Origin: an uncultured Tolumonas sp.
GTDB lineage: Bacteria > Pseudomonadota > Gammaproteobacteria > Enterobacterales > Aeromonadaceae
NCBI RefSeq assembly: GCF_963556105.2
Contig: NZ_OY829944.1
Span: 956,001-1,020,000 of the forward strand
Direction of reading: 5' to 3'
DNA: 64,000 nt
In this document: one piece after another, positions 19,431-23,525 of the stretch
Numbering within the stretch: position 1 is the first letter of the stretch
Layout of the letters: each line of letters starts with the position of its first letter
Program-made: the position numbers and the translations under genes
The notes under the pieces: model-generated
What the model saw: the letters and a program-made list of their open reading frames with translations, nothing else
Databases searched by the model: none
What the model was told of the DNA's origin: nothing

Positions 19431-20486
19431 ATGAGAAAAATTATCCATGTGGATATGGACTGCTTTTTTGCCGCAGTCGAGATGCGCGATAATCCAGCGC
19501 TGGTGTCGTTGCCATTGGCGATTGGCAGCCCGGCGGAGCGTCGCGGCGTCATTTCGACCTGTAATTATGTCGCGCGTCGTTATGGCATTCGTTCAGCCAT
19601 GGCGACGGCACATGCATTGCGTCTTTGCCCGCGTTTAGTATTACTGCCGGGCCGAATGGCGTTATACCGCGAAGTGTCGCGCCAAGTTATGCAGATCTTT
19701 GCCCGCTACAGCGAGATCATTGAACCTGTCTCGATCGATGAAGCTTATATTGATGTCACTGACAGCCCATTATTTCAAGGCAGTGCAACACGTATTGCGG
19801 AAGCGATACGGGCAGATATTCAGCGCGAATTAAATCTCACCGCATCCGCGGGAGTGGCACCGAATAAATTCTTAGCCAAAATTGCCTCTGAACAAAATAA
19901 ACCCGACGGTCTGTTTGTCTTATCGCCACCGCAAGTGCCGGAGTTTGTCCGCCAGCTGGCGTTATCGCGTATTCCCGGTATCGGTGGCAAAACGGCTGAG
20001 CGATTAAACGCGGTAGGGTTGCACACCTGTGCCGATGTGCAGCTGTTTCCCCGTCAGCAATTACTGCTGCAATTTGGCAAAACCGGCTTGATGTTATTAG
20101 AGCGGGCCTATGGTATCGATGAACGCCAGTTGAACACCTCACGGGAGCGCAAATCGGTGGGAGTAGAAACAACTTTCGCGGTGGATATTGCGCTAGAAGA
20201 ACAGGGGCATGCGATATTGCCGCAATTGCTGGCGGAGTTGTCGAAGCGCTTACAGCGCCGTGAATGGCGCGGGCAGATCGCGCGGCAAGGTGTCAAAATC
20301 AAATTTGCCGATTTTCAGCAAACTACAGTTGAACGTTCGGTGAATCGATTTTCACCACCACTATTTGATGAGCTATTACATGAAGCCTGGCTGCGTGGCG
20401 GGGGAAAACCGGTGCGGTTGGTGGGCATCAATATTGGTTTCCCTGCCGCCGAAAATACGCAACAGCTGCCGCTTGATCTGCAATAA
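19431..20486 (+). CDS. dinB: DNA polymerase IV
   Basis: A 351-residue Y-family translesion polymerase, the same length as E. coli Pol IV. Metal-binding carboxylates are visible in IIHVDMDCFFAAVE and in PVSIDEAYIDV. The fingers segment is STCNYVARRYGIRSAM, the thumb helix-hairpin-helix is SRIPGIGGKTAERL, and a little-finger domain follows. The C-terminus QLPLDLQ is a clear beta-clamp-binding motif. The start is ATG 19431 (or the GTG just before it), because the conserved N-terminus begins here. The LexA box ends 6 bases upstream and no ribosome site is visible, so the mRNA is leaderless or nearly so. The gene is SOS-controlled. Confidence 0.96.
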   Translation: MRKIIHVDMDCFFAAVEMRDNPALVSLPLAIGSPAERRGVISTCNYVARRYGIRSAMATAHALRLCPRLVLLPGRMALYREVSRQVMQIFARYSEIIEPVSIDEAYIDVTDSPLFQGSATRIAEAIRADIQRELNLTASAGVAPNKFLAKIASEQNKPDGLFVLSPPQVPEFVRQLALSRIPGIGGKTAERLNAVGLHTCADVQLFPRQQLLLQFGKTGLMLLERAYGIDERQLNTSRERKSVGVETTFAVDIALEEQGHAILPQLLAELSKRLQRREWRGQIARQGVKIKFADFQQTTVERSVNRFSPPLFDELLHEAWLRGGGKPVRLVGINIGFPAAENTQQLPLDLQ

Positions 20487-20487
20487 A

Positions 20488-20513
20488 AAGCCCCTCGTTT
20501 TAGCGACGGGCTT
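20488..20513 (+). terminator. dinB terminator hairpin separated from its T-tract by the IS
   Basis: AAGCCCCTCG (20488-20497) pairs with CGACGGGCTT (20504-20513) with one mismatch. The usual T-run is missing: an insertion sequence begins just after. Joining 20513 to about 21830 would restore CTTTTATTTG directly behind the hairpin. Confidence 0.65.
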
Positions 20514-20520
20514 AATTAGA

Positions 20521-20580
20521 TGGTCCGCCTCCGTTCTCAGCGACTAAGCTGAGAATGAGTTAGGTAACGGAGGTGAACCA
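20521..20580 (+). repeat. nested inverted repeat at the IS left end, covering the transposase ribosome site
   Basis: The outer arms TGGTCCGCCTCCGTT (20521-20535) and AACGGAGGTGAACCA (20566-20580) pair throughout, with two G-U wobbles. The inner arms TTCTCAGC (20534-20541) and GCTGAGAA (20548-20555) pair perfectly, competing with the innermost outer pairs. GGAGG in the right arm is the Shine-Dalgarno for ATG 20583. Confidence 0.85.
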
Positions 20581-20582
20581 TC

Positions 20583-21614
20583 ATGTCTATTCAAGTCATT
20601 GGTATCGATTTAGGCAAATCTAATTTCCATTTAGTTGCACACGATCGCAAAGGCAACACCCTTTTTCGAAAAAAACTTTCCCGCAAACAGTTGATCCAAT
20701 TTATCTATGACACCCCGCTCACCACCATCGCCTTTGAAGCCTGCGGAGGTGCTCATTGGTTGGGACGATTGAGTCTTAAGCTCGGTCATTCAGTGAAACT
20801 GCTTCCCCCTCAATATGTACGGCCTTATGTCAAAGGCAATAAAAATGATTTCATTGATGCTGATGCCATTGCTGAAGCATCGCAACGGCCGTCCATGCGA
20901 TTTGTTGAAGTCAAATCAGAGGATGCGCAACTCATCACCGCTGTTTATCGTGTTCGGCAGGGATATATCAAAGACCGAACTGCATGCATGTGCAGGATTG
21001 GTGCTTTATTACTCGAGTTTGGTGTCAGTCTGCCGCAGGGACATGGGACGATGAAACAGTTATTCACCTAGCTGACAGCGAATGCACCCGAACTGCCGTC
21101 AGCATTAAACATCGAATTAACGGCATTGCATGAGTATTACAAATATCTGAATGAACAAATCAAAGTGCAGGATGACAAACTTACGCGCCATGTTGCGCAG
21201 AGCGATGAAGGGCAATTATTGCATGAGATCCCTGGAGTTGGTGTACTGACGGCCAGTCAATGTATGGCGGAATTAGGGAGTGTGAAACAATTTAAGAATG
21301 GACGCAATCTGGCCGCATGGCTGGGGCTGGTTCCCCATCAGCATTCGACGGGAGGAAAACCGCGTTTACTCGGAATAAGCAAACGAGGGAATAAACATCT
21401 GAGAACGCTGTTCATTCATGGAGCGAGGGCGATTTTAGCCAGGCCGGAAAAGACGGGGTCGATATTTGGGGACTGGTTAGTGCAACTACGAGCCAGTAAG
21501 CCGTTCAATGTAGTGTGTGTGGCGTTAGCGAATAAACTGGCCCGGATAGTCTGGGCGGTATTGAGGTACAAAGAAGCGTTTAATGCAGAGAAACTGCAAT
21601 CCGAGTTTGCATGA
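20583..21614 (+). pseudogene. IS110-family transposase interrupted by an in-frame amber codon
   Basis: The frame encodes a 343-residue DEDD-type transposase/recombinase. The N-terminal RuvC-like domain shows IGIDLGKSNFHLVAHD, FEACGGAHWLGR and KGNKNDFIDADAIAEA. The C-terminal transposase-20 domain shows LLHEIPGVGVLTASQCMAEL and the serine-bearing segment GLVPHQHSTGGKPRLLGISK. The two open segments (20583-21071 and from 21072 on) are in the same frame, separated only by TAG at 21069-21071. The likely ancestral codon is CAG, one transition away. Without readthrough the product is two halves, so the copy is probably inactive. Confidence 0.88.
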
Positions 21615-21640
21615 GCAAAGAGAAGATGACGAAAACGGTA

Positions 21641-21823
21641 GAACCACCGGAATAGAACCTGACAATAAAAACAGCAGAAAATGCTTTGGGCTTTTTTGAG
21701 GATATTCCGGCGCGGAACTCATCGTGGAGCGGGAAGCGAGAGCCTCCCAACAGAGACTCCGAATACATTAGCGCAGACCAATCCCGTCATTGAAGTTTGT
21801 TCTTGCAATAACGGGGCGGACCA
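21641..21823 (+). ncRNA. candidate bridge RNA region in the IS right end
   Basis: The 3' non-coding end folds into two stem-loops. In the first, CCGGAATA (21647-21654) pairs with TATTCCGG (21703-21710). Inside it is a small hairpin AGCA-GAAAA-TGCT (21673-21685), leaving single strands at 21655-21672 and 21686-21702. The second stem is weaker (CGGA 21713-21716 with TCCG 21758-21761). The internal-loop strands carry short matches to both flanks of the insertion site (see findings). This is the layout known for IS110-family bridge RNAs. Boundaries and expression are inferred. Confidence 0.45.
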
Positions 21824-21875
21824 TACATTTTATTTGTTGATGACGGCTCACTGTCATCACCGCAAAGGCGGCTAA

Positions 21876-23525
21876 TTATTTTGTGGTGCAGGAAGCAAAC
21901 ATATCCAGCGAAGTGTCATACGCACTGGTTTTGACATCCAGCAGACCCAGCACAGAATGGAACAGATTATCCTGCGAAAGTGGTTCATCGGCTTTCCGCA
22001 ACAAGCAGTTCTTATCCAGCTTCATGCGTTGCAAAAAGCTCGGTGAAAACCATTGTAATGCGCCGATATGGGTTTGTTCTTCCGGTGCAATCATATACGG
22101 CGCGGCATGCAGATAAATGCCTTTCTCGCCGGTTGACTCACCATGATCAGCCATATACAACATCGCGGTATCAAAACGTTGGTTGTTTTGCTGCAGTAAT
22201 TTTATCACCTGACTCAACACATAATCGCTATACACAATGGTGTTGTCATAAGCGTTGATCAGTTCCTGACGCGGGCAATCTTGTAGCTGATTGGTGCGGC
22301 ATTCTGGCAGGAATTTTTTAAATTTCTCCGGTGAACGCAGGTAATAAGCAGGGCCATGACTACCTTTCATGTGCAAGACAATGACACCATCGTTAGTCAG
22401 CTTATCGATGTAATCCTGTAACTGATACAGCAGAATTTCATCAAAACATTCCCCGTTAGTACACAAACCCGGTACTTTCAGATCTTGTACATTCTGTTCA
22501 CCGATGCGCACTGCGACACCACGACTGCTGGAATTGTTATCTTTCCACAACAAATCAAAACCAGCATGTTTCAGCACATCCACCAGATTTTCATTGCGTT
22601 TGGCTTTGCTGTCGCTGTAGTCCTGACGCGTGAATTTAGAGAACATGCAAGGCACCGACACTGCCGTTTCGGTACCGCATGAACTGACGTTACGATAATT
22701 CACGATATCCAGCTTACTCAGCTCAGGGTTCGTGTCACGGGCATAACCATTCAGGCTGAACTCACTGGCACGCGCCGCTTCACCGACCACAATCACAGTC
22801 AGCACTTTTTTCTGACCACCGGCAGTGATCTTGGCGCCTTTCTTCGCATCTTCGCCCAACGGCGCAACGACGATTTTGCCGCCGCTCAATGTGCTACTGA
22901 TATACGATTGGATCGCGCCAACATAGTTCACTGGCACAATCATGTGACGAATATAGGTGTTATTACGGGCAAAAGAGGCGATATCAACGTAATAAGCGGC
23001 GGCAACCCCACTGCTGATCACCAGCGTCATTACCAGCGTCAGAAACTTATAACCAACCTCTTTCATAAACGACGCATAGTGGATCTTGCTGCGCAGTAGT
23101 AACACCACGGGCAATACACCGAGTAACAAAAGATAAAGGCCCAGTTTTAGACTGAGTAATTCTCCGGCTTCACGAGGGTCGGTCATTAAAGTGTTGCGTA
23201 TCATTTCGCGGTCAATGACGACACCATAACTATCCATGAAATAGGCGGTTGTCGCGCCACCTAATAACAGCACCGACAAGAGCGGTTTGAATAACCATGG
23301 CAGCAACAACAAAGAGAGGATCTGATTCAGCCAGGTGATCAACAGCAGGTAAAGCGCGGCTAAAAACAGCACGCTATGCCAGTTGTCCGTGCCGATGGCA
23401 TTAAACGCAGCCTGCCAGAACGAAAAGTTGGTAAAGGTAATAAAAAACCATGCCGCCAGTAAGATCTGGCGGGCAGGTGTGAGTTGCAGTGAAAATCGAC
23501 GTAAAAAATTCATCAATAAACTCAT
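21876..23525 (-). CDS. eptA: lipid A phosphoethanolamine transferase
   Basis: A 549-residue inner-membrane enzyme that adds phosphoethanolamine from phosphatidylethanolamine to lipid A, which lowers cationic-peptide binding. Five N-terminal membrane segments lie within about residues 20-185, followed by a periplasmic sulfatase-like domain. Zinc and catalytic residues are Glu249 (VVGEAARASEFS), nucleophile Thr285 (SSCGTETAVSVPCMFS), and YMADHGESTGEKG and YLHAAPY. Paired cysteines are present. The gene abuts the pepD stop with no gap, so it is co-transcribed. EptA and MCR share this architecture; I call it chromosomal eptA from its housekeeping context. Confidence 0.92.
   Translation of the reverse strand: MSLLMNFLRRFSLQLTPARQILLAAWFFITFTNFSFWQAAFNAIGTDNWHSVLFLAALYLLLITWLNQILSLLLLPWLFKPLLSVLLLGGATTAYFMDSYGVVIDREMIRNTLMTDPREAGELLSLKLGLYLLLLGVLPVVLLLRSKIHYASFMKEVGYKFLTLVMTLVISSGVAAAYYVDIASFARNNTYIRHMIVPVNYVGAIQSYISSTLSGGKIVVAPLGEDAKKGAKITAGGQKKVLTVIVVGEAARASEFSLNGYARDTNPELSKLDIVNYRNVSSCGTETAVSVPCMFSKFTRQDYSDSKAKRNENLVDVLKHAGFDLLWKDNNSSSRGVAVRIGEQNVQDLKVPGLCTNGECFDEILLYQLQDYIDKLTNDGVIVLHMKGSHGPAYYLRSPEKFKKFLPECRTNQLQDCPRQELINAYDNTIVYSDYVLSQVIKLLQQNNQRFDTAMLYMADHGESTGEKGIYLHAAPYMIAPEEQTHIGALQWFSPSFLQRMKLDKNCLLRKADEPLSQDNLFHSVLGLLDVKTSAYDTSLDMFASCTTK

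Follow-up and report, generated by a model that had tools for sequence, protein, structure and literature searches.

The window analyzed (64,000 nucleotides of an uncultured Tolumonas sp., positions 956,001 to 1,020,000 of contig NZ_OY829944.1) carries, between the dinB and eptA genes, an insertion sequence of the IS1111 family which splits the hairpin of the dinB terminator from its T-tract. Very probably, the 3' non-coding region of this element encodes a seekRNA (bridge RNA) guiding its insertion between the hairpin and the T-tract of terminators. Judging from the sequence data, this reading is suggested by the ends of the element, the empty sites in relatives, the site preference, the covariation between guides and flanks, a candidate donor guide that agrees with the right end, and a conserved fold. 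The mechanism itself (seekRNA/bridge RNA) is already known.

The Element, Its Ends, and Its Transposase

The features identified are listed in Table 1. An IS1111-type element between the dinB hairpin and its T-tract had been proposed from the sequence of the window, along with a hairpin ending at 20513 and followed by no T-run. Both proposals proved correct: the element extends from 20513 to 21827 with TTTTATTTG directly after it, the hairpin ends at 20512/20513, and the T-run is absent. The stem score of the hairpin is 19 (median of the controls 8, 95th percentile 15), and the minimum free energy (MFE) of positions 20484-20519 is -14.2 kcal/mol. The dinB hairpin was missed by the terminator scanner, which fits the loss of the T-run but also the strict stem rule of the scanner. 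Since this hairpin now precedes TTAATTAG instead of a T-run, termination should be weakened.

Table 1. Features of the IS1111-family element and its insertion site (window positions).
Feature	Position	Strand	Remarks
Predicted 3' terminator hairpin of dinB	20489..20512	+	Stem runs up to the insertion point; the homologous sites of G070, G071, G074, and G073 are empty
IS1111-family element	20513..21827	+	1315 bp; delimited by the subterminal inverted repeats (sTIRs) with the 7/3 bp rule, as well as by comparison with relatives having an empty site
Left extension TAATTAG	20513..20519	+	Outside the sTIR; would contribute the greater part of the -10 half to a predicted promoter present only in the circle junction
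Left-end hairpin over the transposase ribosome-binding site	20519..20582	+	Inverted repeat; predicted fold
Left sTIR ATGGTCCGCC	20520..20529	+	10/10 complementary to 21815-21824
DEDD transposase gene	20583..21614	+	Interrupted by an in-frame stop in the window copy; PF01548 and PF02371 in separately searched pieces
3' non-coding region, putative seekRNA/bridge RNA	21615..21827	+	Behind the transposase gene; conserved stems, guides
Stem enclosing the target loop, 5' arm	21647..21654	+	Pairs with 21703-21710
Top-strand guide AATAAAAA (predicted)	21664..21671	+	Complementary to TTTTTATT (right target half, top strand)
Bottom-strand guide GGGCTTTTT (predicted)	21688..21696	+	Same sequence as the top strand spanning the insertion point
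Stem enclosing the target loop, 3' arm	21703..21710	+	Pairs with 21647-21654
Weaker candidate donor guide CTCATC, left end	21718..21723	+	By inspection; imperfect
Candidate donor guide ATACAT, right end of the circle junction (ATACA^T)	21763..21768	+	Repeats "AT" plus the right extension
TTGCAA, -35 half of the predicted circle-junction promoter	21803..21808	+	Sequence only
Right sTIR GGCGGACCAT	21815..21824	+	Pairs with the left sTIR
Displaced terminator T-tract TTTTATT, right target half	21828..21834	+	Adjoins the hairpin in relatives

Members of the IS1111 family carry extensions of 7 (or 6) bp and 3 bp outside their sTIRs (PMC11187229), and the length of these repeats ranges from 7 to 17 bp (PMC11208160). 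The extensions of the present element are TAATTAG (7 bp) and ACA (3 bp), and the ends given by the 7/3 rule agree with those deduced from the empty sites. Its sTIR is a perfect 10 bp repeat, slightly shorter than the IS1111 norm (11-13 bp), and in several sister elements it reaches 12-14 bp. The left extension reads TAATNA(G/T) in 32 of the 35 elements compared below, the exceptions being L006, L015, and L024. If the two ends were joined, they would form the predicted circle-junction promoter TTGCAA-17-CATAAT, the -35 half of which is present as TTGCA(A/G) in all 28 alignment rows; a junction promoter of this kind has been described in the IS1111 family (PMC11187229). The left end is predicted to fold strongly (MFE -37.3 kcal/mol for positions 20519-20600, z -6.06), and the resulting hairpin, which would bury the ribosome-binding site, may be a guard against the synthesis of transposase from read-through transcripts.

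The assignment to the IS1111 DEDD transposases is based on domain matches: the pieces of the interrupted window copy match PF01548 in the N-terminal part (E 1.2e-16) and PF02371 in the C-terminal part (E 4e-25). Full-length open copies of the gene occur elsewhere in the genome, and none of the five copies scored contains an internal stop. One intact copy (P0001) matches the NF033542 model (transpos_IS110) with 325.9 bits, the cutoff being 140, and shows by eye the sequence GLVPHQHSTG, fitting the C-terminal IS1111 motif GL-P----S(t)G. The closest named transposases are partial matches from a Tolumonas MAG, with 93-94% identity. The non-coding stretch located 3' of the gene is 213 bp long, versus 70 bp on the 5' side.

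Copies in the Genome and Empty Sites in Relatives

Nine full and nearly identical copies of the element (98% in the case of L009) are present in the 4.0 Mb genome. Whether the other copies also occupy terminators was a question raised by the original prediction: eight of the nine lie between a predicted terminator hairpin and a T-tract, and the right flank is TTTTATT in all nine, with one extra T in L005. With the flanks read in the orientation of the element, the junction stem reaches the control threshold in these eight copies. The ninth, L003, is located inside a gene resembling, by eye, a PAS-domain gene, at the site GGGGAT^TTTTATT (the caret marks the insertion point); its stem score is 8 and no hairpin is present. 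A gene in the same orientation ends 26-162 bp upstream of seven of the nine copies, while the sole neighboring gene of L007 converges from the right. The upstream gene of the window copy was checked to be dinB by Pfam; those of other copies we take, by eye, to be glmU, valS, ppc, and the gene for a cytochrome bd subunit.

An empty dinB-eptA junction was found in relatives, as had been anticipated: G070 and G071 carry, without any element, GATGGGCT^TTTTATTTG, i.e., GGGCT^TTTTATTTG. The site rebuilt in the original prediction by deleting the element was right as to the hairpin and the T-tract but not as to the four T's, since five are present in the empty sites of G070 and G071. The same site is one T longer in G074 and reads TTTTTGTTATT in G073. 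For the other eight copies, empty sites were searched using joined-flank queries and were obtained in seven cases, each in three or four relatives; the right flank of L006 gave no match in the relatives with this query. Empty sites are thus available for eight of the nine copies in all, in up to four relatives, and their comparison indicates that nothing was duplicated or lost except for the length of the T-run. No target-site duplication was detected at these eight sites, and all nine copies are in a single orientation. At L008, all three relatives carry one or two extra T's, and one T may have been gained or lost at insertion. At L003, the left half of the site differs in the relatives (e.g., CGGCGAT).

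Three further observations concern these loci. The left extension of L006 (G000:C2:749389-750700) is TTTTTAG instead of TAATTAG, which restores a T-run after the hairpin; this may have arisen after insertion or be a vestige of the strand exchange. At L010 (G000:C1:915991-916041), a 51-bp right end with 86% identity stands alone, the rest of the element being unmatched. In G071, the counterpart of the terminator occupied by L004 is followed by a different insertion (L156/L160, G071:C6:387050-387873) which resembles, by eye, an IS200/IS605 TnpA element; two unrelated elements are therefore found at one terminator region.

Target Guides and Their Coupling to the Flanks

The relatives studied came from a scan of genome contigs and from plasmid records, in addition to the copies of this genome. 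Among the 92 loci examined, many had no second end or a spurious inverted repeat; 28 elements (including two from Tolumonas) were kept because their sTIR was convincing and both flanks were present, and the seven other Tolumonas copies brought the sample to 35, with 22 distinct guide pairs. The guide columns were taken from the alignment. Guides matched their own flanks at 17.7 positions versus 14.8 under permutation (z 8.0; none of the 20,000 permutations was as high), with z values of 6.6 for the strand at 21664-21671 and 6.2 for that at 21688-21696; since related elements are not independent, these figures overstate the certainty. For 11 guide pairs, the own target comes out first among the 22, and the poorest fits are those of L025, L071, L013, and L043 (ranks 15, 14, 13, and 11). 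The Tolumonas pair ranks its own target only 8th of 22 because nearly the same target is common to many relatives.

The location of the guides was also addressed by an unbiased scan in which every twelve-base window of the non-coding region (410 in all, counting both strands) was tested over the 35 elements. A z value above 4 was obtained in 15 windows, all lying within the two guide strands: the antisense coupling peaks in windows starting at 21658-21664 (z up to 7.0) and the sense coupling in those starting at 21684-21691 (z up to 7.6). No third segment of the non-coding region exceeded this value. A second test was carried out on 27 further, mostly distant IS1111 elements, many of which have targets that are not T-rich and carry their guides in the same alignment columns. 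In 23 of these elements, but not in the other four, the own target is first among the 27, and own flanks again did better than every permutation (z 13.7); the rows were inspected before scoring, and an offset of 3 was allowed, as against 2 in the 35-element test. This set excludes L186 (a duplicate of L178), L092 and L101 (short flank), and L112 (imperfect repeat, close to L111).

The loop strands had originally been proposed as the guides that directed this insertion, and the covariation of both strands with the flanks across relatives argues for that proposal. GGGCTTTT is indeed present at 21688-21695, and the sense match is one base longer (GGGCTTTTT). ACAATAAAA is also present, at 21662-21670 and not at 21664-21672, and its pairing part is AATAAAAA. 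The original prediction came with the caveat that T- and A-rich matches of this length can occur by chance. This caveat holds for Tolumonas taken alone, as the rank of its target shows, but is overcome across the 35 and 27 elements by the permutations and the scan. The idea that the matches are a by-product of T/A-rich composition, the true target guides lying elsewhere in the non-coding region, is scarcely credible: individual T/A-rich matches of 8-9 bases are likely enough, and the own-target rank of Tolumonas is by itself no proof of guides, but the scan yielded no other coupled segment and the further elements with non-T-rich targets use the same guide columns.

In a further IS1111-like element (L060 in G036, L061 in G073), the loop seems, by eye, to match its own flank TTCCGTTTT.

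Fold of the Putative RNA and Donor Side

The stem pairing 21647-21654 with 21703-21710, which had been read from the sequence, was recovered exactly, and the helices enclosing the loop vary on both sides across relatives. The structure predicted by RNAalifold from 24 sequences has three helices, namely an outer stem of 8 pairs, a CCT/AGG helix of 3 pairs, and an apical stem of 4 pairs, the guides forming the opposite strands of an internal loop. In the outer helix, 97.9% of the cells are paired and changes on both sides occur in seven of the eight pairs; in the whole structure, the values are 97.5% and 10 of 15 pairs, as against 20-49% paired in slid controls. Four of the five covariation measures of the structure lie above all 500 shuffles, and the number of further pair types shows no excess (350 of 500 shuffles being as high). 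It is covariation, and not stability, which speaks for a structured RNA here: when 21636-21732 is folded as a single sequence, its stability does not exceed that of shuffled sequences (z -0.91). The search of positions 20300-22000 against Rfam yielded no match at the gathering score, the best of two weak matches having 28.2 bits versus 55.

A segment downstream of the target loop repeats "AT" plus the right extension and may be the donor guide for the right end. Such a repeat was found within a 25-nt segment in 54 of 56 elements and for six of the seven types of extension (raw count). The segment follows the changes of the extension through ACA, AGA, ATA, GTA, CTA, and AGG, with L043 and L095 as exceptions. 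The weaker candidate for the left end, CTCATC, resembles the reverse complement of TAATGAG, a sequence found in many relatives.

Recognition of the Site

In this genome, 15 unoccupied sites match GGSCTTTTTATT exactly, versus 2 for the reversed-pattern control. Four of these 15 are the other arm of occupied terminators. Since a strong hairpin ends at the junction in 14 of the 15, GGSCTTTTTATT is here nearly equivalent to "terminator." With up to one mismatch to GGGCTTTTTATT, 65 sites were found, versus 40 for the control; 54 one-mismatch sites were listed and 18 of them fetched, 12 of which are hairpins. Occupancy was 7/18 for sites with GGSC versus 1/51 for the other one-mismatch sites (p 2e-4, the grouping being post hoc and each locus counted once). 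In a stricter split, 4/13 exact GGGC sites were occupied, versus 4/56 with one mismatch (p 0.036). L005 lies outside both counts.

Most likely, the site is picked by sequence pairing rather than by the hairpin. The alternative, in which the transposase reads the terminator hairpin itself, extruded or transcribed, and the loop matches are incidental or secondary, is very unlikely. It would account for the stems that reach at least the 95th percentile of the 10,500 control positions at the junction in eight of the nine copies and in 21 of the 35 elements, and class C group II introns may recognize hairpins in a similar way. Yet the hairpin is probably not read, because L003 and sister elements with other guides occupy guide-matching sites devoid of strong hairpins: in six sisters whose guides do not specify terminators (L023, L024, L029, and L072-L074), the stem scores 6-13, the threshold being 15. 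The hairpins among the one-mismatch sites are, moreover, rarely used. Recognition of the hairpin was rejected on these grounds.

Still less probable is a fairly unspecific insertion followed by the selection of survivors behind genes, which would enrich terminators. The seven copies situated shortly behind a gene of the same orientation are in keeping with such a process, but the insertion point is exact to the base relative to TTTTATT in all nine copies (apart from the extra T at L005), the orientation is constant, L003 lies inside a gene, and the match between own guides and flanks exceeds all 20,000 permutations.

Proposed Mechanism

According to the guide-RNA reading, which we prefer, the RNA from the 3' region would be transcribed, processed, and bound by the transposase, as suggested by the data on other elements (PMC11187229, PMC11208160). 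The covarying stem would hold the internal loop presenting both target guides, AATAAAAA pairing with the top strand of the right half and GGGCTTTTT with the bottom strand where it spans the insertion point. The sequence specified by both guides would be approximately GG(G/C)CT^TTTTATT, which corresponds to the T-tract of a terminator preceded by the 3' arm of its GC-rich stem. Because the guides would thus specify the end of a terminator, the transposase-RNA complex would place the element between the hairpin and the T-tract. With the loop paired to the two strands of GGSCT^TTTTATT, other segments of the RNA would hold the circle junction, and the element would go in with a single orientation, without any duplication of bases. 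Site choice directed by pairing has been demonstrated experimentally in other IS1111 elements (PMC11187229), and we infer by analogy that pairing is also the cause of site choice here.

Comparison with Known Systems

The element resembles the IS1111 elements described as using seekRNAs (ISEc11, ISKpn4, ISPst6, and ISPa11; PMC11187229) in its DEDD transposase, its sTIRs with extensions of 7 and 3 bp, its 3' non-coding RNA, its guide order, and the lack of target duplication. In that account of the IS1111 family, the complement of the top strand lies 5' of the complement of the bottom strand (PMC11187229), and sequence covariation points to the same order in the present element. The targets named there are a linear site, the integron attC, and Pseudomonas REP sequences (PMC11187229), whereas the target is here an intrinsic terminator, a target common to sister elements in several genera. 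Among the open-licence matches listed, there was no description of terminators as a target of IS110/IS1111 elements.

The internal-loop target guides, as well as the candidate donor guides, recall the bridge RNA of IS621 and the IS110 group (PMC11208160). In that system, as described (PMC11208160), the RNA precedes the transposase gene, whereas it lies behind the gene here, where long sTIRs are also present; the order of the target strands in IS110 elements is the reverse of that in IS1111 (PMC11187229). Membership of the IS110 group proper (IS621 type) was rejected in view of the RNA region downstream of the transposase gene and the IS1111 strand order.

Class C (IIC) group II introns are mobile and insert at intrinsic terminators (PMC4424553, citing Robart 2007). 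They are, however, ribozyme-based retroelements with an unrelated chemistry, the target alone being alike. A class C intron was rejected at this locus since transposase domains were the only ones detected in the two pieces of the gene (Pfam, E<=0.001) and Rfam gave no match at the gathering score in 20300-22000. The IS1111 of Coxiella burnetii belongs to the same family and also has a repeated stem-loop target, with more than 50 copies per genome (PMC2104537), but its target is described as one chromosomal recognition sequence and not as terminators in general (PMC2104537).

The present case indicates that a single fixed guide can have many targets when it is aimed at a degenerate feature occurring throughout the genome, and it suggests terminators as landing sites. 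It also raises the question of whether the elements gain from read-through by parting the hairpin from the T-tract.

Related Elements

A strong junction stem is present in 21 of the 35 elements and in 13 of the 26 from outside Tolumonas, versus an expected 5%. A quick transposase tree with one support measure was built from 41 of the 42 rows entered, L048 being dropped because its hit region contains a stop; L043, L186, L037, L042, L106, L108-L113, L115, L117, L191, and L192 are also absent from it. One branch (SH-aLRT 95) separates 29 rows from gamma- and betaproteobacteria. In 28 of these 29 rows (not in L025), versus 3 of the 12 rows outside, the right flank has four or more T's within its first eight bases. 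The hairpin-site label requires six changes along the tree, gains and losses counted together, at least five of these changes being forced by starred branches, versus a mean of 11.7 after shuffling.

Other left guide halves were found in several sisters: GTGAC (L023), GAGG (L024), GTCAG (L029), CTCAT, CTCAC, and CACAT (L072-L074), and GATAGAC (L178/L186). These left halves match their own site exactly, with one mismatch in the case of L072. The absence of a strong stem was scored in L023, L024, L029, and L072-L074. One Pseudomonas genome holds both L178/L186 and the terminator-type L032/L048, and these natural guide-target pairs would be useful for dissecting the mismatch tolerance of IS1111 guides.

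It is about as likely as not that, in this clade, the right half of guide and target stays T-rich and the left half has been reset time and again, the versions with GGGC, GGGT, or CGGT giving a generic terminator-seeking element. If this is so, one fixed RNA would open up many mostly harmless sites behind genes, as a guide-RNA counterpart of the class C introns.

A distant relative, L096 (G220:C31), is inserted directly 3' of the T-run of a terminator-like hairpin, and not before it.
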